Origin: a virus
Direction: 5' to 3' (one strand)
IMG/VR virus record: IMGVR_UViG_3300031772_000252
Coordinates: 1 to 25,498 of that record
Length of the DNA: 25,498 nt
The notes beneath the pieces are model-generated. The model had not been told where the DNA came from, did no database searches, and worked only from the letters and a program-made list of their open reading frames with translations. A program made the position numbers and the translations under genes. Positions 2,990 to 22,516 of the stretch are shown here, piece after piece. Numbering within the stretch: position 1 is the stretch's first letter; each line of letters opens with the position of its first letter.

Positions 2990-5900
2990 TTAAGCACCCC
3001 CAATCGCCCTTAAATATTCGCTTTCTAAAGATATTCCCTTACTTAATTTATCATTTATGTCTTTCAGGTATTTATTATATTCAGTATTATCGGCAATTCT
3101 TGAGTTAATTATTATTATGCTTTCCATATTGGAAAGTATGTCTACGGTATTAATTCTAATCGCTTGGAATTGTCCTGCTAAAAGCCCGGCTGTTTCTTCT
3201 GTTATGCCTGCAATTGCTCCGGTTAATCCTTTTCTCCCTGCCTCTTCTAATTCCATACCTGCTGATTCTAAAACCTCTTGTATTGCTTCCCATTGTGTTT
3301 CTGCAGCTTCAATCATTTCTTGATATGTTCCGGTTAGATCCTCTATTTCTTCAGGTGTTAGCCCGCCTTCAGAAAGAATAGCAAATTGATCATACCAATC
3401 CTCGATATATTTTGTAATTATAGTTCTCTTAAAGGCGTCTAAAATTGCTTTTCTCATCATATCGTTAAAAGTATCGGCAAAAACCTGGGCCGAATCTAGC
3501 CCTTGAGAAAATCCTTCAGCGATGGCATCGGCAATTGATTCAGTGGTGGTTCCGGTAAGAATTTCTTGATATTGCTGATACAGATTAGCTATTTCTGCAT
3601 TGGCGCTTTCTATAGCAGATAACCATTCTTCTATCTTTTCTTGATCAACTTCGCTCCAGGTCCACCATAAAAATTGTCCGTAAGCTTCTTTTTCAGCCTC
3701 AATCATTTTATTATATGTATCAATTTGATCCTCGAGTAAATCAATTGTATCTTGTATTGCCTCGGTCTTTGCCGTTCCAGAAGATTGACTTAATATCGTT
3801 TGCTGTTTTTGTAATTCAAGAGTAATCGCTTGTAATTCTTCTCTAAGTTCGGGAACGTCAGAATAAGTTTTTACGAATAGATTGATAATACTATTTATAG
3901 CAGCCGCTATTCCGCTTATAATCCCGGCAATATTGCCAGTTGAAAAACCAATTGTTATCTCACCAATTCCGCCAATTAAATCAGCCATATCATTTATTGC
4001 TTCTTCAAGTTCTGTGTCAAAATTTCCCACAACGTCGGCCAAAGCATGCAGGGTGTCAACCGTTTTATTAATTTCGTTATTTATATTTTCCCATATTTGC
4101 TTTTGTGATTCAGCGATATCTTTATCGAGTAGAATAATGATATCGGCATATTCAGAATATTTTACTTTCATCTCTTCGAGGGTTTTAATTTTATCTTCTA
4201 ATTCTTTATTATTTAGATCTTCCCCATATTCGGCTAATTTATAATCTATTTCTTGTTTTGCTTTACTAAATTTAACCTCTGCAATTAACTGCTCTTCTAT
4301 AATCTTTAATCTGTCCCGTTCATATTTAACATCGGTTAGCAATAATAATTCGTTAGTTTTCTCCTGAATTGAAACAATCTTTTCTTCTGTTGTCTGATAA
4401 GATTCAAAATAAGATTGTAATATTTTTCTCTTCTCATCAACTGCTGCTTTTTCGGCATCAGTAATTTCTTTTAATTTATCATTTACGAATATGAAGTATT
4501 CTTTATTAGCTTCCATTTCTTTTCCAAGTCCCGCTTTGGCTATTTCAAGTCTTAATTTATAATTATTGTCTAATTCATCTGTTTGTTTCCCCAGATTTTC
4601 CTTAAATATAGTCAATGCTGTTTCTGCTATCTCTTTATTATATTTATCATTAATTTCTAATATATTTTTATTGTGCTGTTCTACCGCCCCTAAATATTCA
4701 GTAGATCCCTCTTCGTAATTTTTGATTATAGATTTGAAATTATCTTTTTCTGCTTTAAGGTCTTTATCCCTTGCCTCTGTTATATACCCGAAGAGTTCAT
4801 CTTCTATCTTCTTCTTTTTTTCTATTATAGTTTTATTATATTCGTATATATCATCGGTAATTATTTTGGTTAATTCGGCATTGTCTTTATATTTTGTTAA
4901 TATTTCAGATAAATATTGACTATAATTTTCGCCATCCATAACAAGTTGTGCATTGTGTTCTTTTACATATTCTTCTCCGAATTGGTCTACATCGCTGGTA
5001 TATCTTTTATATTGACTTGCCATATATTTTAATTTATCTTCTATATCTTCGATTTCTTTGTCGGTAATAGTAGGAATAACCGTGGGTTCTTCTTCAGGAG
5101 GTTTTCCGGGTTCAGGAGTAATCACAATCGGTTTTTCTCGTGTTTTTCTTAATTCCTCTAAGGATTTAGTTAAAATATCTACCATTTCATATGATTTTTC
5201 TTGATTTTGATTTAATTGGTCTTCTTCTAATGCTCTTTTTTCGGTTGCCAAAGATAAATCTTTTTCCAATTTCAGATATTCATTATTATCCCTTAAACGT
5301 ATCTCTATCATATCATTTAACTGTTCTTGCTCATATAATTCATATTCCCCGCCTGTTACTATCCACTTCGCTAAGTCCTCTTCGGCTTTAATTTGTTTAT
5401 TAATTCTTTTTATTTCTTTATCTCCCGCATCTTCGTTCCTATCATATAATTCTTTAGCTAAATCCGCCCGGCGCATTTCAATCTTCGCCTGTGCTAGGTC
5501 TAATTCCATTATCCTTATACTTAAATTTATAGTTCCTTCTTTAGCTAAACTTAAAATATCGATAGAAGTGGCAGCACCTTCGACAGCCTTTCCAAGAGTG
5601 GGGAAGTATATAGCCAGAGCTTCTTCTGCTGCGTGTAGGTGGGTTGTTTCTTCTTTGGTAAGTTCTGTTTTGCCTCGTAGATTTTCTACTGTAGCGATTA
5701 AATCATCAATTCTATTCTGTTTACTTTTTAGTGTATTAGTTAATTCCGAATAAGCCCTTGATAACTCGGAAAACTCATCATTAGTCCCGCTCATCGCCTG
5801 ATTAATTCCACGAGCTATATTGTTCATAAATCCGAGCAAACTATCTCCGAGAGGTTTCAACTTTGCCATTATATTATTTTTCATAATCGCCATTTGATTT

Positions 5901-6886
5901 TCGGTAGTATCTACCATGATCTTGAAGGCTTCAGAAGTGGCGCCAGTAGAGTTTTGTACTTCTATTAAGGCTTTATTAAATTCCTCGCCTTGGTCGCTCG
6001 CAACGGCAAGTAAGCCAGTCAAACCCCTGATATTAGGAAATAATATACTTAATTGTTCGATATTTCCACCTGTAGCGGTAATCAAATCATTGAGGAAAGT
6101 TTTAAATCCTTTTCCTCTTATAGCAGCTGTATCAAAGTCAATGCCCAATTCTGAAATTAATTTTTTTGCCTCTTCACCAGGCGTAATAATAGCATTGAGC
6201 ATACCTCTAATACCCGTCATCATTTCAGGAGTCTTAAGAGTTCTAGTGCCTTGAGCAATAATTGCCATCAAATCATCGAAAGCAAGTCCAGCTTGCGCTG
6301 CCAATCCTGTAACCGTAGTAATCTCGGGTCCAAGTTCTTCCATATTTGTCTTGCCAAGTCGAACAACGGTAAAGAGTTTATCCGATATATTCGTTGCATT
6401 CCCTGCTGCTTCTCCATAGGCATTTATAATACTCGTCAAGGCATCGGCGGCTGTGAAGGTATCAGTTACACCTCCCACTGCTAGTTCCATAGATTGTCGA
6501 AGTATATCCATAGCTTCAGCACCATCGATGCCAGCACTGATAATCTGATAAAGTGCTTTTGTGAGTCTTATGGCACTTTCAGGACCAGTTTTTGACATAT
6601 CTATAATTTCTTGGGATATTCCTTCAAAATTGCCTTGTACCATTTTTGAGATAGTCTGGACTTCCTTCATGGCAGTTTCAAATTCTTTAGAAAAATTGTA
6701 GGCTTGTTTGGTTATTTTTGCAAAAACAAGGGCTGCACCAATGCCTAACCCAGCAAAAATATCCATTCCAGTTATACTACGAGTTAAAGTACGTAATATT
6801 CCCTTCGCCTGGACTGCTCCTGTTTGTAATCCCGTATTATCGATTTTTGTCCGCCAAAAAAGCGAACCTCCGGTTTCTAGTGCCAT
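2990..6886 (-). CDS. Tail tape measure protein (TP901 type)
   Basis: At 1298 residues this is the largest product. It sets tail length and is ejected ahead of DNA. Residues about 70-360 match the TP901-type tape measure core (KEFETAMKEVQTISK, TKALYQIISAGIDG, GLAAQAGLAFDDLMAIIAQG). A hydrophobic stretch at 40-62 and another at about 958-1000 (IGGIGEITIGFSTGNIAGI) could insert into membrane. Residues about 370-950 are charged, heptad-rich coiled coil. With the usual scaling of about 0.15 nm per residue the tail would be near 190 nm, which is an inference. The start at 6886 is set by AAGGTGG, which lies within the last codons of the upstream glycosyltransferase, so the two are translationally linked. 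Confidence 0.95.
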   Translation of the reverse strand: MALETGGSLFWRTKIDNTGLQTGAVQAKGILRTLTRSITGMDIFAGLGIGAALVFAKITKQAYNFSKEFETAMKEVQTISKMVQGNFEGISQEIIDMSKTGPESAIRLTKALYQIISAGIDGAEAMDILRQSMELAVGGVTDTFTAADALTSIINAYGEAAGNATNISDKLFTVVRLGKTNMEELGPEITTVTGLAAQAGLAFDDLMAIIAQGTRTLKTPEMMTGIRGMLNAIITPGEEAKKLISELGIDFDTAAIRGKGFKTFLNDLITATGGNIEQLSILFPNIRGLTGLLAVASDQGEEFNKALIEVQNSTGATSEAFKIMVDTTENQMAIMKNNIMAKLKPLGDSLLGFMNNIARGINQAMSGTNDEFSELSRAYSELTNTLKSKQNRIDDLIATVENLRGKTELTKEETTHLHAAEEALAIYFPTLGKAVEGAATSIDILSLAKEGTINLSIRIMELDLAQAKIEMRRADLAKELYDRNEDAGDKEIKRINKQIKAEEDLAKWIVTGGEYELYEQEQLNDMIEIRLRDNNEYLKLEKDLSLATEKRALEEDQLNQNQEKSYEMVDILTKSLEELRKTREKPIVITPEPGKPPEEEPTVIPTITDKEIEDIEDKLKYMASQYKRYTSDVDQFGEEYVKEHNAQLVMDGENYSQYLSEILTKYKDNAELTKIITDDIYEYNKTIIEKKKKIEDELFGYITEARDKDLKAEKDNFKSIIKNYEEGSTEYLGAVEQHNKNILEINDKYNKEIAETALTIFKENLGKQTDELDNNYKLRLEIAKAGLGKEMEANKEYFIFVNDKLKEITDAEKAAVDEKRKILQSYFESYQTTEEKIVSIQEKTNELLLLTDVKYERDRLKIIEEQLIAEVKFSKAKQEIDYKLAEYGEDLNNKELEDKIKTLEEMKVKYSEYADIIILLDKDIAESQKQIWENINNEINKTVDTLHALADVVGNFDTELEEAINDMADLIGGIGEITIGFSTGNIAGIISGIAAAINSIINLFVKTYSDVPELREELQAITLELQKQQTILSQSSGTAKTEAIQDTIDLLEDQIDTYNKMIEAEKEAYGQFLWWTWSEVDQEKIEEWLSAIESANAEIANLYQQYQEILTGTTTESIADAIAEGFSQGLDSAQVFADTFNDMMRKAILDAFKRTIITKYIEDWYDQFAILSEGGLTPEEIEDLTGTYQEMIEAAETQWEAIQEVLESAGMELEEAGRKGLTGAIAGITEETAGLLAGQFQAIRINTVDILSNMESIIIINSRIADNTEYNKYLKDINDKLSKGISLESEYLRAIGGA

Positions 6887-6887
6887 T

Positions 6888-8075
6888 TTATTCCACCTTA
6901 ATTAAATTTTTCTTTGCATTCTCTTGATTAAAAATATCCCAACGTATAGGTAACCTATTATTATTCAATCCAATTCCAAAATTCATATATTCCCCTGCTT
7001 TTTCATAGTCCTTTTTCTCGAATTCATAAATAGCCAGCCAATTGAGAATTTCAGGAAGCACAATTTTTGAATTATTAATTAATAACCGTTCATATAAACT
7101 CCCCTTTGTTTTACAAATATCGAGTGCAATATCAAAATATTTTTTTGCCTTTTCATTATCCTTGCTGGTCCAATAATTCCCTAACATCAAATATATTTGA
7201 GAGATCCTGCTCGAATAATGACAGGCCTCTCTTTCTATTCTTTCCGCATTTTTTATATCATCTTTAGCTAAATATGACCCCACCAGATTAACAAAAACTT
7301 CAAGAAAGGCATTCCAGCCCTCATTATAATTTTCCTTTCTCATCTTTTTTATCCATATCTCACCATGGCGAATCGTATTCTCAAAATCTCTGGTGACATA
7401 GTATGTCTTTACTAAATGAGTTAAATTATGCAGGTTATCCGGATGTTCTTTAAACTCTTTTTGGAGCATCGGCAAACTACGCGCCATTTTATTATCTAAT
7501 AATTTTTCGCCCTTTTCCCCCTGGAAAATATATCCATAATGATTAAAGATTATATGAGGGGCAAAAAGATAGGGGGGCTTGCAAATTGGTTTATTATGGA
7601 CCGCCTGCTCAAAATGGAAACCACTCTCATTTTTGAATATTCTGGGCTGCAGCATTTCTGAATATTGTTTTAGGTCCCGGGTATAGTAGTTATATAAATT
7701 TACAAATACCGTTGGTTCTTTATATTCTGGGTTCAGAATTATATCCTCTAACAAGTATAAGCATTCATGACGCAATTCCTCATCGGCATCCATATACATA
7801 ATTTTATCCCCGATAGCCTTTCCGATCCCATAATTGCGGGCTTTGCTGAAATCCCAGGGGATAAATTCTTTTTTATATACCTTGTCAGTAAATTTTTTAG
7901 CAATATTTATCGTCCTGTCTGTAGATCCGGTATCTACTATAATTAATTCGGTAAGCAGTTTTAGTGTTTTATCATCTTTCATTTGAATAATAGGTAAAAA
8001 AGAATCTAGGCATCTTTGTAAATTTGCTTCCTCATTTTTAACGATCATACAAATTGATAATTTTGGTTTTTCCAT
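6888..8075 (-). CDS. Family 2 glycosyltransferase with C-terminal TPR region
   Basis: The 395-residue protein has a GT-A fold glycosyltransferase domain in its N-terminal half: SICMIVKNEEANLQRCLDS (residues 7-25), VDTGSTDRT (47-55), FSKARNYG (76-83) and the metal/sugar-nucleotide DXD motif DAD at 96-98. From about residue 200 it becomes helical with TPR-like repeats (a unit such as NEKAKKYFDIALDIC). This layout is the same as in SunS-type peptide glycosyltransferases and in other GT2-TPR enzymes. It is inserted between a C39-like peptidase gene and the tape measure gene, a place where tail operons normally have no enzyme. Substrate is unknown; a virion protein, a peptide or a surface polymer are all possible. 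RBS AAAGGA precedes the ATG. Confidence 0.88.
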   Translation of the reverse strand: MEKPKLSICMIVKNEEANLQRCLDSFLPIIQMKDDKTLKLLTELIIVDTGSTDRTINIAKKFTDKVYKKEFIPWDFSKARNYGIGKAIGDKIMYMDADEELRHECLYLLEDIILNPEYKEPTVFVNLYNYYTRDLKQYSEMLQPRIFKNESGFHFEQAVHNKPICKPPYLFAPHIIFNHYGYIFQGEKGEKLLDNKMARSLPMLQKEFKEHPDNLHNLTHLVKTYYVTRDFENTIRHGEIWIKKMRKENYNEGWNAFLEVFVNLVGSYLAKDDIKNAERIEREACHYSSRISQIYLMLGNYWTSKDNEKAKKYFDIALDICKTKGSLYERLLINNSKIVLPEILNWLAIYEFEKKDYEKAGEYMNFGIGLNNNRLPIRWDIFNQENAKKNLIKVE

Positions 8076-8087
8076 TTAAATTTCCTT

Positions 8088-8450
8088 TTATAGATTAATT
8101 TTGATAAATGATGTCTCCCTTTCAAAAGTATCTAATTTCATTTTTATTCCACGTGCCGGATCATAATATTTATTATTATTCCAGACACACCAGTGTCTAT
8201 TCTTATATCCAGTGTAATGAATAGTGACCATACAGAGTTTTGGTTTATTATTGTTTTTTATTCTAACAGCTTTATTACTACAGGATATCCCCTTTTTTTG
8301 TAAGGCATAATATACTTTTTTTGTGTTTGTTTTGCCTTTTGAATCAAATAATTTTATTGATTCTTTAAGAGATATTCCGGCAATCATTGCCACGCATGCC
8401 TGGCCACACAAATTTGAATTATCAGGTTGTCTAATTAAATTAATTGTCAT
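8088..8450 (-). CDS. Small C39-like (papain-fold) cysteine peptidase
   Basis: A 120-residue protein with the features of a minimal C39-type peptidase: an N-terminal Gln (Q8) and catalytic Cys15 in QPDNSNLCGQACVAM, and a C-terminal His86 in RHWCVWNN followed by Asp97 in YYDPARG. These supply a Cys-His-Asp triad and an oxyanion Gln. It has no signal peptide, membrane helix or ATPase domain, unlike bacteriocin exporters. Its ATG overlaps the stop of the frameshifted tail chaperone in an ATGA, so it is read as part of the tail operon. Possible roles are virion protein processing, a tail-tip peptidase or a partner of the adjacent glycosyltransferase; none is proved. Confidence 0.72.
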   Translation of the reverse strand: MTINLIRQPDNSNLCGQACVAMIAGISLKESIKLFDSKGKTNTKKVYYALQKKGISCSNKAVRIKNNNKPKLCMVTIHYTGYKNRHWCVWNNNKYYDPARGIKMKLDTFERETSFIKINL

Positions 8451-8698
8451 AATAAACCATCCAATTCATTTATATCTCTTATCTCTAAATCTTTCGCCTT
8501 TTTCTTTTTCTCATCTCCGGACTTATAACTTGGAATTGAACTCATTAACATCACTAAGTTAGCATAACTATAATTCCACAAAATATCTCTCATGGACATC
8601 TGGGGAAAATAATGCATGAGCCCACCGATTATTCGCCAGGGGTTGTTTCCTTCCTGGTCTGTAGAAGATTCATCCCCTTTATCGAAACTAAAGACGCC
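8447..8698 (-). CDS. Tail assembly chaperone, T-type extension made by -1 frameshift
   Basis: This open frame has no start of its own. It continues in the -1 frame from the slippery site in the upstream chaperone gene for 83 codons without a stop, ending TGA at 8447, which overlaps the ATG of the next gene. The encoded segment (NNPWRIIGGLMHYFP, then DILWNYSYANLVMLM, ending in a lysine-rich tail) has the look of lambda G-T type extensions: an aromatic helical region with DILW and ANLVM. The full G-T product would be 247 residues (164 in the zero frame plus 83). The short and long forms normally coat the tape measure and recruit tail tube subunits. Without the frameshift this 180-base stretch would be an unexplained gap in an otherwise tightly packed operon. 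Confidence 0.85.
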   Translation of the reverse strand, partial: GVFSFDKGDESSTDQEGNNPWRIIGGLMHYFPQMSMRDILWNYSYANLVMLMSSIPSYKSGDEKKKKAKDLEIRDINELDGLL

Positions 8699-9189
8699 AA
8701 AAAAGGGTTCATATCCATTTGTTGAACTATTACCGTCATTAGTTTCAACCCCTCCTTCGCGGTCAGGTTTTCATTCAAAAATTTAATTAATTTTTTTGAC
8801 GGTTCTTTTTCTCTATTAACAATTCCGTAGGCAATCATTTTGATTAACTTGTCTTTATTCTCAATTACATTTTTTGCTCCTAGATCTAAAAGATTAATCT
8901 CCTTCCCCTCATTTTTCATAGCCCCTACTAGTTCATCAGTATTTAAATCCAATAGAATTTCGCTGATTTTTAACAATGTTCCCATCTTAATAGGATAGAT
9001 AACGAATTTTCTTTCAGAAGAAATTAAATGAAGTTTATTAAGCATATTTTTATGAGTTATGGTTATTCTGAAGTCTACCCCCTTCTCTAAAATGGAGTCG
9101 ATAGCGCCCTGACGAATTTGATTATTTTTAATATCACTCGGGGCCCCGAGCTTATCCTTAATTTCTTTTTTCTTATTCTTCTCAGGCAT
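8629..9189 (-). CDS. Tail assembly chaperone, short (G-type) form
   Basis: This 186-residue, mostly helical cytoplasmic protein lies between the tail tube gene and the tape measure region, the standard place of the tail assembly chaperone. It has a charged N-terminus, a short beta/loop region around residues 40-70 (KFVIYPIKMG) and helices to the end. The zero-frame product ends 22 residues after the slippery site; ribosomes that slip make the longer G-T form. The start at 9189 follows AAGGAG. No sequence motif defines the family, so the call rests on order, size, helical content and the frameshift, which together are strong. Confidence 0.85.
   Translation of the reverse strand: MPEKNKKKEIKDKLGAPSDIKNNQIRQGAIDSILEKGVDFRITITHKNMLNKLHLISSERKFVIYPIKMGTLLKISEILLDLNTDELVGAMKNEGKEINLLDLGAKNVIENKDKLIKMIAYGIVNREKEPSKKLIKFLNENLTAKEGLKLMTVIVQQMDMNPFLASLVSIKGMNLLQTRKETTPGE
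8698..8707 (-). other. Programmed -1 frameshift slippery site
   Basis: On the minus strand the sequence CCCTTTTTTG covers two overlapping X-XXY-YYZ heptamers in the zero frame: C-CCT-TTT (8707-8701) and T-TTT-TTG (8704-8698), across codons Pro162, Phe163 and Leu164 of the chaperone. The first allows clean re-pairing of both tRNAs. I did not identify a clear downstream stimulatory stem by eye, and the upstream AAGGAGGGG is about 45 bases away, too far for the usual Shine-Dalgarno stimulation. Confidence 0.8.
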
Positions 9190-9271: not shown

Positions 9272-9757
9272 CTACTGAACCGTCATTACGATTGGGGAAC
9301 CAGTGACAGGCATCAGCACATCAGCGCTAAAGGTAATCTGCCCGGATTCGGTCTTGGCAAATTTCAATTCTCCGCCAGCATAAAGAGAAGCTCTTTTAAT
9401 TACGAATTTTAATTGTTTTCCATTTATCTTTTTAGAAATAATCTGGAAAGCTCTCTCACTTATTACTATTGCTGTGACAGGAGCTGTCCAGATAGTTGTA
9501 AGACTCGCAGTGCCCCCGAAAGCATCCTCCATTATACTTACTCCCATATCCCTTGTAGCAAATTCTATAGTCTTTTTGCCTGCGGTAATTAGCTGCACAT
9601 CGGGATATTCAGTTTCCTCACAAAACAGATCAGCTATCGAGGGTGCATTAAGTACGATATGCGCACTGTCAGGAACTATATGCTCTATGGTAGCCAGAGA
9701 AGCAACAGACGGTCCTATTTTTATTGATTCTAATCCTATCAATCTTATATTACTCAT
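9272..9757 (-). CDS. Major tail tube protein
   Basis: A 161-residue beta-rich protein that should form the stacked hexameric rings of the tail tube. It begins MSNIRLIGLESIKIG, has a central region suited to a tube fold (IEFATRDMGVSIMEDAFGG) and ends with beta strands (GQITFSADVLMPVTG). It follows the tail terminator gene and precedes the chaperone, the normal order. Its ribosome site is the strong GGAGG, within a small hairpin almost identical to the one before the major capsid gene, which fits a high-copy product. The identification rests on order, size, composition and this translation signal. Confidence 0.82.
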   Translation of the reverse strand: MSNIRLIGLESIKIGPSVASLATIEHIVPDSAHIVLNAPSIADLFCEETEYPDVQLITAGKKTIEFATRDMGVSIMEDAFGGTASLTTIWTAPVTAIVISERAFQIISKKINGKQLKFVIKRASLYAGGELKFAKTESGQITFSADVLMPVTGSPIVMTVQ

Positions 9758-14299: not shown

Positions 14300-14821
14300 C
14301 TACACTTTTAAGGTAATTTGATAGCCTATTATCCATCTATTATTTATGATTACACTTTTTTTAAAATCATTTTGCGACCATTCGCTTATGTGGGTTTCAT
14401 ATATATTGCCAAACATTGTGCCCTGTCCGCTAATATAATTGGGAGTTGACACTATCCAATGCCTGGCTTTTTTGAGCATTTCAAGCCCTTTTTCTTTTTT
14501 TATATGTTCGATAACATCCATGAATAATACTAAATCATAATTCGCTAATATTCCATCGTTTTTAGTTATATCTTGATTATAAATATTATTATAAATTACA
14601 GCATACCAGGGTAGTCTGGTATATTCCTTAAAAATTTCTATTGCATCTATTCGTTTTTTCCACTCTTCCGGGTATAACCGCCCTTGCCAGACTTCAAGAT
14701 ATTCTCTTAATAGGAAGCCCCATTTTCCAAAACCAGAACCTACGTCAAGAATAGAATCCGGATTGATTCTCATTATTAAATCAATTACCGGACTGATTAT
14801 ATTGGGCCTACTTGATGGCAT
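14300..14821 (-). CDS. Class I SAM-dependent methyltransferase
   Basis: A 173-residue protein with a Rossmann-like methyltransferase core: motif I SILDVGSGFGKWG (residues 23-35), an acidic end of strand 2 at IDAIE (58-62), and motif IV-type DLVLFMDVIEHI (96-107), followed by IVSTPNYISGQG. The DVIEH signature is typical of small-molecule, glycan and methyltransferase-11/23 type enzymes more than of DNA methyltransferases. It lies one base after the stop of a GT4 glycosyltransferase, with the ribosome site inside that gene, so the two probably act on the same product, for example O-methylating a transferred sugar. That joint role is an inference. Confidence 0.88.
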   Translation of the reverse strand: MPSSRPNIISPVIDLIMRINPDSILDVGSGFGKWGFLLREYLEVWQGRLYPEEWKKRIDAIEIFKEYTRLPWYAVIYNNIYNQDITKNDGILANYDLVLFMDVIEHIKKEKGLEMLKKARHWIVSTPNYISGQGTMFGNIYETHISEWSQNDFKKSVIINNRWIIGYQITLKV

Positions 14822-14822
14822 T

Positions 14823-15752
14823 TTAATCCTCTTTTATAATATCTTTAATTTGTCTTAATTGTTTTTCCAGAGTCCACTCTTTTTCTATGATCCAATTTCT
14901 ATATTCATTACTATTATAATCTTTGCTAATTATTTTATTAGTTGCCTCATCAATAGTATTAAAAATAACATTTTTAGGATATAATTCTTTGGCCCCCCTA
15001 AAGTTATGGATTACCGGTTTAATTCCCCTCGCCATTGCTTCAAAAATACCATACCCAAAACTTTCATGTATCGATGTATGAAGCAGGTAATTTTTATCTT
15101 CCCAAAATTTCTCCATATCATCAATCCAGCCGTAGAATTTTACATTATCCTGCAATCCCATTTCCTTGACCATATACTCCAGGTATATTTTATATCTTAG
15201 ATCCTGGAACGAACCTGCCACGTGCAATTTATATCTTTTATCAATGTCAGCTAATTTCTTTAATATTTGTAAAGCCATTTGAGGATTCTTTTTATAATTA
15301 ATGAATCCAACCCAAGATATGTTATATCCGGGTTGCACCTTCTTCCAGTGGGTAGAATCCAGGTCAATCCCATTAGAAACGATTTCTATTTTAACTTTTT
15401 CCTCAATGTCCGGGATAAATATTTTCAGAATTTCTCTGATATGGGGGGCTACCAGAATTAGTCTATTTACTACAAGCCAATTGATCTGTTTAGGAAAATC
15501 CGTAAATATTTCATAGCTGTGAAGTCTAATTATAACTTTTTTACCTTTGATCCCTTCGTAATTCGTTCCTATTATGGCCGTCTGATTGCACCATTCCAGC
15601 CAGATAATATCAGCCCAGTCAATTGCATTATATATATCTTGTTGATTCCTGATCATAAACTTCCTAGTGGTATAATTGTCTGACAATCCTTCAATTATCG
15701 GATCTATAAATTGGTCAAGTCCTGCCAGACATATAAAACCTACCTTTTTCAT
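14823..15752 (-). CDS. Family 4 (GT-B) glycosyltransferase
   Basis: The 309-residue protein has the two-domain GT-B form. The C-terminal domain shows the GT4 pattern: SWVGFINYKKNPQMALQI (residues 146-163), LHVAGSFQD, VKFYGWIDDMEKFW (204-217), and the E-x7-E motif at Glu230 and Glu238 in HESFGYGIFEAMARG. The N-terminal domain is short (MKKVGFICLAGLDQFIDP, IIRLHSYEIF). It would move a sugar from a nucleotide donor to an unknown acceptor in the cytoplasm. The gene sits within the packaging/head operon, next to a methyltransferase; such enzymes in this position are unusual and suggest modification of virion proteins or host glycans. Length is slightly short for the family. Confidence 0.9.
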   Translation of the reverse strand: MKKVGFICLAGLDQFIDPIIEGLSDNYTTRKFMIRNQQDIYNAIDWADIIWLEWCNQTAIIGTNYEGIKGKKVIIRLHSYEIFTDFPKQINWLVVNRLILVAPHIREILKIFIPDIEEKVKIEIVSNGIDLDSTHWKKVQPGYNISWVGFINYKKNPQMALQILKKLADIDKRYKLHVAGSFQDLRYKIYLEYMVKEMGLQDNVKFYGWIDDMEKFWEDKNYLLHTSIHESFGYGIFEAMARGIKPVIHNFRGAKELYPKNVIFNTIDEATNKIISKDYNSNEYRNWIIEKEWTLEKQLRQIKDIIKED

Positions 15753-16093: not shown

Positions 16094-17730
16094 TATTTAT
16101 TCACCCACCTTTTATATTCTATTCCATACTTCTTGGCAAATATTTCCATTGCCTCATGAGTATGTCTTTGACTTGTTACTTTTGATGCAGATTTTACTGC
16201 TTCGTCATATTCAACCCCAGTCTTTATCAAACTCTCACGCCTTAATTCATAAATCGTCTGATATTTATCTTGTAATCTACTATTTTCTAATAAATAAAAA
16301 CTTTTTACTTCGGACCCGGAATGTGGAAACTTTGTGCTATCTGTTATTTTCGCACTATATTCGTATTGAGTTCCTATTGCCCTTATTTCAGTTCCTCTTT
16401 TATATGCTCCTAACATATTAAGATCATCTCCGGAAAAACTGCTATTGGAAGGATGATTATGTGTAAATAGCATATTATCGACATTCATTTTATCAAAATC
16501 TTCTCGTGTGAAATTTACATAATTCTTACTGCCGGATTTTTCAAATACTACATTTCCTTCTTTATCTACCGCAATACAATGTTCTATTTTTGCATCGGCA
16601 TATCTTTCGTTGAATTCTCCTATTCTTATTAATTGCATATTCATCTTTTCAGGCCCAAATATAGGCATGCTTATTCGTGTTATATCTTCTCTAAGTATAA
16701 AGTCCTTTGTAAAATTGTCTTTAATAAAATATGGTATATTCTTATATCCTGCAATCTTAGAAGCATTTTCTTTTATCCAATTCTCCGCTCTTTTAGGAAT
16801 TTTTGAAATATAATTTGATTGAGCGATCTTTCCGGTTTTCATGAATTTAAGAGAATCTTTTTCGTTGAGCATGATCGAAGTTGTATAGCAAAAGCAAATA
16901 GGATGCCACCCACTAAAGATAAACCCCTTCGGGTATTCTCCTGCTAAATTATCGCATATATCTATTTGCGGATGCATACCAGATAAGTGCACCTCTATTC
17001 CTGTCACAAACGGTAATTCTTGCCTTCTCGTATAATCGCTCATTCTATATGCCATATTTACTTCGGTTCTGGTAAGCCTTAACGCATTTTTATAAGAACT
17101 CCTATAAATCCCTGCTCCAGGATGGTAACCTTTGGCCGCCTTGCTTAAAACAAGTTTCCCTTCCTGTCTAACTCTTCTGAATAACCTATTCGGTTCATTC
17201 AAATATTGCTTAATATTCCCTACAATTCCAGCCGCACTTCTTCCGGTAGATATTCCCGAACTAAGATAAAGTTCTAATTGATCCTTCGCTCCATTGGTTA
17301 GATTCCAGACTCGTTCGCTCAGGTTCATTCCCGCTTCGGTTCGGTTAAGAAAAGAATCCAGTGCCGCCAAGTTTAATTGATTAAATGAGGGCGATATAGC
17401 ATCTTTACTTAATTTTATCCCTTCGGTCCAGGTTCCCACCAGTTTATTATTTTTTAAATTAGCCATATCCCAATTGGAAACAATTCCGTTTTTTATGTTG
17501 GTCTGAATATCTTCATGGAGTTTATTTAATATTGTATTTACTTTATCTTCTAATCCTTTATTTATTTTATAGAAAGAACCTTGAGATATTATAGATGGCT
17601 TTTTCAATTCAAAAATGCTAATTCTCTTAGCCAAATCCTTTGACGCCTGGTTTAATGTTGCTTCAATTTTTCTATTGTATTTGATTATATTCTGTATATT
17701 CTTCTTTTCGAATTGATCTTCGATTCCCAT
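16093..17730 (-). CDS. MuF-type minor head protein with C-terminal JAMM-like domain
   Basis: A 545-residue minor head protein. Residues about 150-285 form the MuF/SPP1 gp7 domain, with RLTRTEVNMAYRMSDYTRRQ (218-237), HPQIDICDNLAGEYPKG (253-269) and the closing HPICFCYTT (276-284). Such proteins bind the portal and enter the host with the DNA in some phages. After a linker, residues about 375-465 contain HNHPSNSSFSGDDL (424-437), close to the JAMM metal motif HxH...S-x2-D, following an upstream Glu (IEHCIAVDKEGNVVF). The last residues (HTHEAMEIFAKKYGIEYKRW) form another segment. C-terminal enzymatic or toxin domains on MuF proteins are known. The gene overlaps the dehydrogenase gene by 59 bases. 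Confidence 0.88.
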   Translation of the reverse strand: MGIEDQFEKKNIQNIIKYNRKIEATLNQASKDLAKRISIFELKKPSIISQGSFYKINKGLEDKVNTILNKLHEDIQTNIKNGIVSNWDMANLKNNKLVGTWTEGIKLSKDAISPSFNQLNLAALDSFLNRTEAGMNLSERVWNLTNGAKDQLELYLSSGISTGRSAAGIVGNIKQYLNEPNRLFRRVRQEGKLVLSKAAKGYHPGAGIYRSSYKNALRLTRTEVNMAYRMSDYTRRQELPFVTGIEVHLSGMHPQIDICDNLAGEYPKGFIFSGWHPICFCYTTSIMLNEKDSLKFMKTGKIAQSNYISKIPKRAENWIKENASKIAGYKNIPYFIKDNFTKDFILREDITRISMPIFGPEKMNMQLIRIGEFNERYADAKIEHCIAVDKEGNVVFEKSGSKNYVNFTREDFDKMNVDNMLFTHNHPSNSSFSGDDLNMLGAYKRGTEIRAIGTQYEYSAKITDSTKFPHSGSEVKSFYLLENSRLQDKYQTIYELRRESLIKTGVEYDEAVKSASKVTSQRHTHEAMEIFAKKYGIEYKRWVNK

Positions 17731-18511
17731 TTAAGGTCCCTTTCTCTAATAAATTTACATTTTCTTTATCGGCCATTATCATTACCTCAGGTAGAATTCC
17801 CTTCTTCCTTGCTGCCCTAATCAAAAATTTAATATCTTTGGAAAGACATTTACCCCCTGCCCCCCTGTAACCATCGAATAATGGATCGAGATGCATTGCG
17901 TTGATATACTTATCCAGCTTAAATGCCTCAAATAATTTATAATAGTCTGCCCCATATTTTTGACAGATATCGTATAGTTCATTCCCAAATACTACTTTTA
18001 TGGTATACAGACTATTTAGGGCCACCTTCAATAATTCCGCTTCTACCGGCTTCATCATTATTATTTTATTTTTATTAATTACACGCTTAAATAGTTTTTC
18101 AAATATCTCGAATACTTCTCTTTTCCTGGTCCCTACAATTATTTTATCAGGGCAGATTTCATCCAATAACGCTGTTCGTTCCCGTAAGAATTCAGGCAAA
18201 TAGACAAATTCTCTCTTATATTTTTTTACAAATTTATCTATCGTCCCTGGTATAATAGTTGATCTTATAGTGATTATTCCTTTTCTGTTTTTAAGGTTTA
18301 TATAGCTTACTGCCATTTTAACATCTTCAAATTTCATATCCGCTTTAGTAGGCACACAGACGAATATAATTTCGCATTCAAAAATATCATCGTTCAGGCC
18401 TTTAAATGGATCGTATTGTTTAACCGGATAATTCATATCTTTTAATAATCCGGCAAGGCTGTTTCCGATAACTCCGCAACCCACTATTCCAAGCTCCATT
18501 TTGTTATGCAT
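17672..18511 (-). CDS. Truncated UDP-glucose/GDP-mannose dehydrogenase-family protein
   Basis: The 279-residue protein has the NAD-binding and central domains of nucleotide-sugar 6-dehydrogenases: Rossmann motif GIVGCGVIG (residues 8-16), FVCVPTKAD (50-58), RSTIIPGT (83-90), LPEFLRERTA (105-114), the lysine helix EAELLKVALNSL (157-168) and catalytic Cys222 in GAGGKCLSKD. Full-length members have about 400-450 residues with a C-terminal nucleotide-binding domain; this one stops soon after the cysteine helix, so that domain is absent. The usual Pro in GGxCxPKD is Ser here. Its ATG overlaps the portal stop by eight bases, and its end runs 59 bases into the MuF gene. Activity on free nucleotide sugars is doubtful; another oxidoreductase or binding role is possible. 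Confidence 0.85.
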   Translation of the reverse strand: MHNKMELGIVGCGVIGNSLAGLLKDMNYPVKQYDPFKGLNDDIFECEIIFVCVPTKADMKFEDVKMAVSYINLKNRKGIITIRSTIIPGTIDKFVKKYKREFVYLPEFLRERTALLDEICPDKIIVGTRKREVFEIFEKLFKRVINKNKIIMMKPVEAELLKVALNSLYTIKVVFGNELYDICQKYGADYYKLFEAFKLDKYINAMHLDPLFDGYRGAGGKCLSKDIKFLIRAARKKGILPEVMIMADKENVNLLEKGTLNGNRRSIRKEEYTEYNQIQ

Positions 18512-21685: not shown

Positions 21686-22516
21686 TTAAAATAATGTAGG
21701 CTGTAAAACCTTTGTTTCTTCTGGGATTATGTTCATTCCGGGTTTCTTAAGGGTTAAATAGTCTTGGTCAATATACTTATCATCTAATTTTATATTCATA
21801 TATTTATATAAATCTTTTTTTATATAGAAATCCTTTCCATATTCTAACAATTTCTTTGCTATTTTATTCCCGAAATCCCGCCAATCTACCTCATGAGATA
21901 AATGGTAATGGTTCATTTTACCTACTTTATATTGGTCGATAAAGGGATAGCTTAATTCCAATAATTGATATGTGATCAATGGCCTGATAACCGGTTCAAA
22001 ACTCACCCAGGTCTTTATGCCTTCATTATGTAATTTTTTTAATACTTCTATTCTTTCTCTCGGCAATGCAGCGTTGGGTTCGTACTCTAAACTTTCCTTT
22101 TCATCCAGTAATGTTAGGGTGGCGCCCACCTTTATTTTTTTGAATTTTTTGAATAGATCCACATCCCTTAAAATTCTTTTGCCGCCCTTAGATAATATTG
22201 CAGTTGGTATATTATATCTTAATAATATCTTTAAAATTTCTCTTGTTGTTTCGTATTCTATATCTGCCTTGCAGTAAGGATCGCCCATAAAGCATAATAG
22301 CACCTGTTCAGTTATTTCTTGCTTTTTTAGTTGTTTCTCTAATTTTTCTAGTATATTTTTTCTTGGTTTTATATCTATACTTGTTATGTATTTTCGGAAT
22401 GGCATAGTTTTTACATAACAATACTTGCAATTATGATCGCAACCGTTATAGATATTCAGAGAATAGGGACTATATTCCCTTGCTTTTCCTCTTGGTTTAT
22501 AGATAATTTCCTCCAT
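21686..22516 (-). CDS. Radical SAM protein, spore photoproduct lyase-like
   Basis: The 276-residue enzyme carries the radical SAM cluster motif C-x3-C-x2-C at Cys26, Cys30 and Cys33 (YNGCDHNCKYCYV). The approach YKPRGKAREYSPYSLNIYNG is characteristic of SplB-like radical SAM proteins. Later elements of the half-barrel are visible: QVLLCFMGDPYCKAD, TAILSKGGKR, VGATLTLLDEKES and WVSFEPVIRPL. It would bind a [4Fe-4S] cluster and cleave SAM to a 5'-deoxyadenosyl radical. Substrate is not shown by sequence; DNA repair or nucleobase modification are candidates because of the neighbouring ParB-like and methyltransferase genes. It starts four bases after the methyltransferase stop, with GGGG nine bases upstream, and is the last gene before terminator T2. 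Confidence 0.85.
   Translation of the reverse strand: MEEIIYKPRGKAREYSPYSLNIYNGCDHNCKYCYVKTMPFRKYITSIDIKPRKNILEKLEKQLKKQEITEQVLLCFMGDPYCKADIEYETTREILKILLRYNIPTAILSKGGKRILRDVDLFKKFKKIKVGATLTLLDEKESLEYEPNAALPRERIEVLKKLHNEGIKTWVSFEPVIRPLITYQLLELSYPFIDQYKVGKMNHYHLSHEVDWRDFGNKIAKKLLEYGKDFYIKKDLYKYMNIKLDDKYIDQDYLTLKKPGMNIIPEETKVLQPTLF

Follow-up and report, generated by a model that had tools for sequence, protein, structure and literature searches.

Conservation and predicted -1 frameshifting of a probable tail assembly chaperone locus (G/GT) in environmental phages and their Bacteroidota phage relatives

The window, that is the whole stretch of DNA analysed, consists of 25,498 nucleotides of the virus record IMGVR_UViG_3300031772_000252; the chaperone region and the genes on either side of it are read from the minus strand. 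The zero-frame chaperone ORF, G (8629..9189), runs from an ATG at 9189 to a TAA at 8631-8629 and codes for 186 aa. Its codons 161-164, read directly, are AAC CCT TTT TTG (8709-8698) and include the slippery site CCCTTTTTTG (8698..8707), formed by two overlapping heptamers, C_CCT_TTT and T_TTT_TTG, both in the X_XXY_YYZ phase of G. The -1 frame is free of stops from 63 nt upstream of the slip down to a TGA at 8449-8447. Past the slip it defines the T extension (8447..8698), composed of 83 codons, from GGC (8698) to TTA (8450), and of the TGA, which shares an ATGA with the ATG of the next ORF (8450). From the reading of the two frames, a GT fusion (8450..9189) of 247 aa is predicted for either heptamer. 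A slip at C_CCU_UUU would read base 8701 twice and join 163 to 84 codons, whereas a slip at U_UUU_UUG would read base 8698 twice and join 164 to 83; the two are told apart by residue 164 of GT, Phe in the former case and Leu in the latter. The coordinates and frames given in the preliminary description, including the two overlapping in-frame heptamers and the 83 open codons up to a TGA overlapping the next ATG, agree to the base with this reading.

G and T lie between the gene for the major tail protein, recognized by synteny, and the tape measure gene, with two inserted genes separating T from the latter. The probable major tail protein (9272..9757, minus strand, 161 aa) matches PHROG 6767 and, by tblastn, the syntenic gene of Riemerella phages; the gene in the same slot is annotated as major tail protein in Porphyromonas phage 005b. 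The tape measure protein (2990..6886, minus strand, 1298 aa) is matched by PF10145 (E = 2.1e-28) and by several PHROG tape measure families. The inserted genes, both on the minus strand, code for a C39-peptidase-like protein (8088..8450; weak Pfam C39 match, E = 0.015), whose ATG is the one overlapping the T stop, and for a family 2 glycosyltransferase (6888..8075; PF00535, E = 1.2e-18). The same C39-peptidase-like gene starts on the T stop, within an ATGA or GTGA, in L001, L030, L032, L033, L034, L036, L039 and L041, while in L009, L038 and L050 another accessory gene begins at the same kind of overlap; in L005, L026 and L031 the overlap is a TTGA. These arrangements suggest a gene insertion slot, and possibly a translational coupling of the inserted gene to frameshifted ribosomes.

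Other genes of the window may be recorded here. A LAGLIDADG homing endonuclease gene (222-989; PF03161, E = 4.4e-20) is found among the tail genes, and a radical SAM protein (21686-22516; PF04055, E = 1.8e-13) adjoins a small terminase-like gene. Sugar-related genes are located inside the structural operon, at 6888-8075, 14300-15752 and 17672-18511; the set includes the family 2 glycosyltransferase, a methyltransferase, a group 1 glycosyltransferase and a UDP-glucose/GDP-mannose dehydrogenase-like protein.

With G and T as queries, searches of viral contigs brought together 31 distinct loci that carry a T domain. An in-phase CCCTTTTTTR is present at the same codons in 30 of these 31 environmental phage loci, the core kept in phase in all T loci but one being CCCTTTTTT followed by a purine; the distant L052 has T_TTT_TTT in place of C_CCT_TTT. 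Synonymous changes were counted on a tree of 24 distinct sequences, at 43 degenerate codons whose residue is invariant. Only 4 of the 43 showed no synonymous change at all, and two of these four are the slip codons CCT (162) and TTT (163); 7 and 9 changes occurred at the other invariant Pro codons, and between 3 and 5 at the other Phe codons. In the same 24 sequences, codon 161 codes by turns for Asn or Ser, yet its third base is always C; codon 164 is restricted to TTG and TTA, with 5 changes between the two, and is never CTN. A further heptamer, A_AAG_GGG, located 24 nt downstream, was considered as a slip site and rejected, being lost in several relatives.

Both frames are under purifying selection at the protein level. 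The dN/dS ratio is 0.061 for G upstream of the slip and 0.099 for the T frame past the G stop, where the same DNA read in the other frames gives 0.83 and 1.32. The synonymous divergence of the G frame falls from 0.705 to 0.401 on entering the overlap, as expected for dual coding. The probability that the overlap stays open in the window, given the G protein and its codon usage, is about 0.18; the open -1 frame alone is thus weak to modest evidence, and the conservation is strong evidence. Relatives were checked for stops in the -1 frame and for loss of the heptamer: no stops were found, and the heptamer is kept.

Searches were extended to isolated phages. By tblastn, G of the window found nothing among them, and T of the window produced one match, in BcepNazgul, which was discarded as a chance hit that is not syntenic; T of L045, which is divergent, weakly matched phages of Riemerella, Porphyromonas and Bacteroides. 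Bacterial genomes scanned with G and with the large terminase contained no relative. In the isolated phages the gene order is tail protein, G, a small T ORF and tape measure, the same as in the window. RAP44, CRP34, CRP2, Versailles, Porphyromonas phage 005b, PJN03 and the gut record L061 all carry T in the -1 frame of G, and every named phage record that was examined has a heptamer at the homologous codon pair. The phages differ from the window, which has C_CCT_TTT, in the heptamer used: AAATTTT in RAP44, CRP34, CRP2 and PJN03, GGGTTTT in Versailles and L061, and TTTTTTG in 005b. If protein and codon usage are held constant, a heptamer of this sort is expected by chance at that pair with a probability of 0.06 to 0.24 per lineage, and of roughly 2e-5 for five lineages combined, in a rough product that treats the lineages as independent. 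The exception among the records checked is L062 (MT836288.1, 1060-1190), a distant gut metagenomic member, which also has T in the -1 frame but reads GAC AGT TTT ACA at the homologous place, with no canonical heptamer.

Profile alignment by hhalign to the Bacteroidota phage proteins gave a probability of 98.3% for G (E = 1.2e-14) and of 97.4% for T (E = 1.5e-11), with the slip codons aligned. These comparisons support the homology of both halves to G and T of Bacteroidota phages (Riemerella, Porphyromonas, Bacteroides). In public records of the related phages, G and T are given as separate hypothetical proteins. The G/T region of the Riemerella phages is almost unchanged in L064 (OQ791282.1), deposited as Shigella phage Henu10, where the T ORF is not annotated at all; the stated host of this record may be wrong. 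A single-chain GT is present in the PHROG collection, as an annotated joined gene or a natural fusion, because the joined readings of RAP44 and PJN03 match PHROG 11996 (208 residues) nearly end to end.

The locus is very probably that of a tail assembly chaperone, G/GT, in a long-tailed phage, where a minority of ribosomes would slip by -1 in CCCTTTTTTG and produce the 247-aa GT. Conservation, selection, homology and synteny give good support to the preliminary description, which had proposed a hidden -1 frameshift product of a tail assembly chaperone. The identity of G as a chaperone is very likely, and rests on gene order, on the frameshift architecture and on fold matches to annotated G or chaperone proteins. 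In profile searches, G matched PHROG 12247 (E = 1.8e-10); by profile comparison, PHROGs 12247 and 15994 are homologous to G, and 11996 and 25685 to T, all four being labelled 'unknown function'. In Pfam neither G nor T matched any named sequence family at threshold, and G of the relative RAP44 scored only 14.5 bits against Phage_TAC_5, with a cut-off of 27. AlphaFold models had pLDDT values of 66 (G) and 57, corresponding to moderate to low confidence. When the viral library was searched by Foldseek, the G model resembled the Pre-tape measure frameshift protein G of Xylella phage Sano (E = 0.011, probability 0.99), a predicted fold match at 14% identity, with no sequence family link found. Further matches of the same model (pLDDT 66) are named tail assembly chaperone, with probabilities up to 0.99 and TM scores of about 0.4. 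In the PDB, the structure search with the G model gave no match, and searches with the G and T profiles gave chance matches only.

Alternative routes to T were weighed against frameshifting. T could be a separate gene, reached by reinitiation just after the G stop from the ATG at 8617 (8615..8617, minus strand), the only ATG, GTG or TTG that the window offers in the open -1 frame before the T core is reached. This ATG follows the G stop by 11 nt and persists in most close relatives, and the Riemerella phage records place the T start at an ATG downstream of the G stop; ATG 8617 is however replaced by CTC in L045 and by TTG in L051, and Versailles, L061 and L058 have no ATG, GTG or TTG in the T frame before the T core. 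It also cuts a conserved block, NPWRxIGGLMHYF, whose first part, NPWRxIGG, precedes the ATG and is conserved also where G stops just before it (L026, L046, L051), and in the T model the first helix, a low-confidence prediction, begins at residue 20. Reinitiation, which moreover leaves the conservation of the slip codons without explanation, was accordingly judged very improbable, and ATG 8617 not to be the T start. The separate start for the second frame, which the preliminary description had named as a possible objection, is therefore not borne out, several relatives having no usable one; judging from the sequences compared, frameshifting is the only route to T that fits all these relatives. 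A change of frame by transcriptional slippage on the T run, yielding mRNAs of altered length, would be less probable still: homopolymer runs do cause it in bacteria, and L052 carries a run of nine T, but six is all that the window and its close relatives have, which falls short of the more than 8 T cited for such runs (PMC3711429), and the invariant CCC would have no explanation. The nine-T run of L052 (about 4923-4931) is placed at the frame change of the most distant T relative, and is long enough for such slippage. A sequencing error or a decayed gene might be suspected in one metagenomic record; the layout recurs in some 30 further environmental contigs, as well as in isolated phages, and both frames are under purifying selection, which refutes this explanation.

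The frameshift may also be real and occur on the second heptamer, by slippage of Phe and Leu tRNAs on U_UUU_UUG, with Leu replacing Phe at residue 164. The restriction of codon 164 to TTR would fit this reading, as would Porphyromonas phage 005b, which has only T_TTT_TTG at this place, and L052, with its T_TTT_TTT; the TTR limit is, on the other hand, also explained by the Phe codon of the -1 frame. When heptamers were tested systematically in E. coli, those of the class H_HH.U_UU.Y, hence C_CC.U_UU.U and A_AA.U_UU.U, were among the efficient ones; the stated rule is cognate re-pairing in the A site, and U_UU.U_UU.G falls outside the efficient class (PMC4066793). C_CCU_UUU, which the preliminary description had regarded as uncommon, is not so for bacteria, as shown by that class. 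Slippage on U_UUU_UUG, in addition, does not need CCT and the preceding C, both invariant, and the Riemerella phages (A_AAT_TTT) and Versailles (G_GGT_TTT) hold the first heptamer only. Because of the E. coli class, the invariant C and CCT and the relatives with the first heptamer alone, C_CCU_UUU is favoured as the most likely slip point, and a slip on U_UUU_UUG as the main event appears unlikely. A contribution of the latter is possible, since it is the only choice in 005b. It is rather improbable that CCCTTTTTTR acts as a double slip site, with both heptamers used to give two GT isoforms, and that ribosomes reaching the T stop restart on the accessory gene, its dose being set by the slip rate. 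The predicted tryptic junction peptide would be LMTVIVQQMDMNPFFGVFSFDK for a slip on C_CCU_UUU and LMTVIVQQMDMNPFLGVFSFDK for one on U_UUU_UUG.

Stimulatory elements were searched for around the slip site. No significant RNA structure was found downstream (mean z from -0.4 to -0.8), and no Shine-Dalgarno sequence is present at the usual stimulating distance. A pairing of CCCTTT with AAAGGG, proposed by RNAalifold, was rejected as a stimulator, as it includes the slip site and alignment columns that coding holds fixed. A Shine-Dalgarno-like string, AAGGAGGGG (8749-8757), occurs within G, some 45 nt before the slip site, and its AAG, GAG and GGG codons are unusually conserved at synonymous sites; as a stimulator of the slip it was discarded, being too far, and no start in the T frame follows it.

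The production of a short and a longer tail chaperone by a -1 slip is well known in tailed phages; in chaperones of the lambda type the two proteins are produced at a set ratio, and neither is retained in the virion. As in phage lambda, G/GT is here placed between the tail tube and the tape measure genes, a short G is accompanied by a -1 extended GT, the slip is near the 3' end of G, and the G stop follows soon after. The lambda heptamer is G_GGA_AAG, whereas it is CCCTTTTTTG here; also unlike lambda, sequence similarity to the Pfam chaperone families is not detectable, and two unrelated genes are inserted before the tape measure gene. What this locus and its relatives show directly is the architecture, the phase, the constraint on codons, the purifying selection acting on T, the homology and the synteny; slippage itself, its rate and the binding roles are inferred. 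Most ribosomes would read G to the TAA at 8631-8629, and a minority would slip back by one base in CCCTTTTTTG, most likely with the Pro and Phe tRNAs shifting in tandem on C_CCU_UUU, to which U_UUU_UUG may add, and make a GT with the 83-residue T domain. The roles in tail assembly are taken over from lambda (PMC5009743): by analogy, G would be expected to cover the tape measure protein and GT to bring in the tail tube protein through its T part, at a ratio of G to GT set by the slip rate.

Among the open-access papers searched, no description of this frameshift was found for Riemerella, Bacteroides or Porphyromonas phages; an earlier report of CCCTTTT sites is possible. The comparison of these loci indicates a well-conserved -1 programmed frameshift, a known mechanism with new family members, the annotation of which is lacking in the related isolated phages. 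Frameshifting in tail chaperones would thereby be extended to an unnamed family, made of Bacteroidota phages and environmental phages; PHROGs 12247, 15994, 11996 and 25685 can now be named, and the results suggest that the fused product is missing from the records of about 25 phages. Occurring at a single homologous codon pair, C_CCU_UUU, A_AAU_UUU, G_GGU_UUU and U_UUU_UUG would provide a useful natural set for the study of slip rules outside E. coli.
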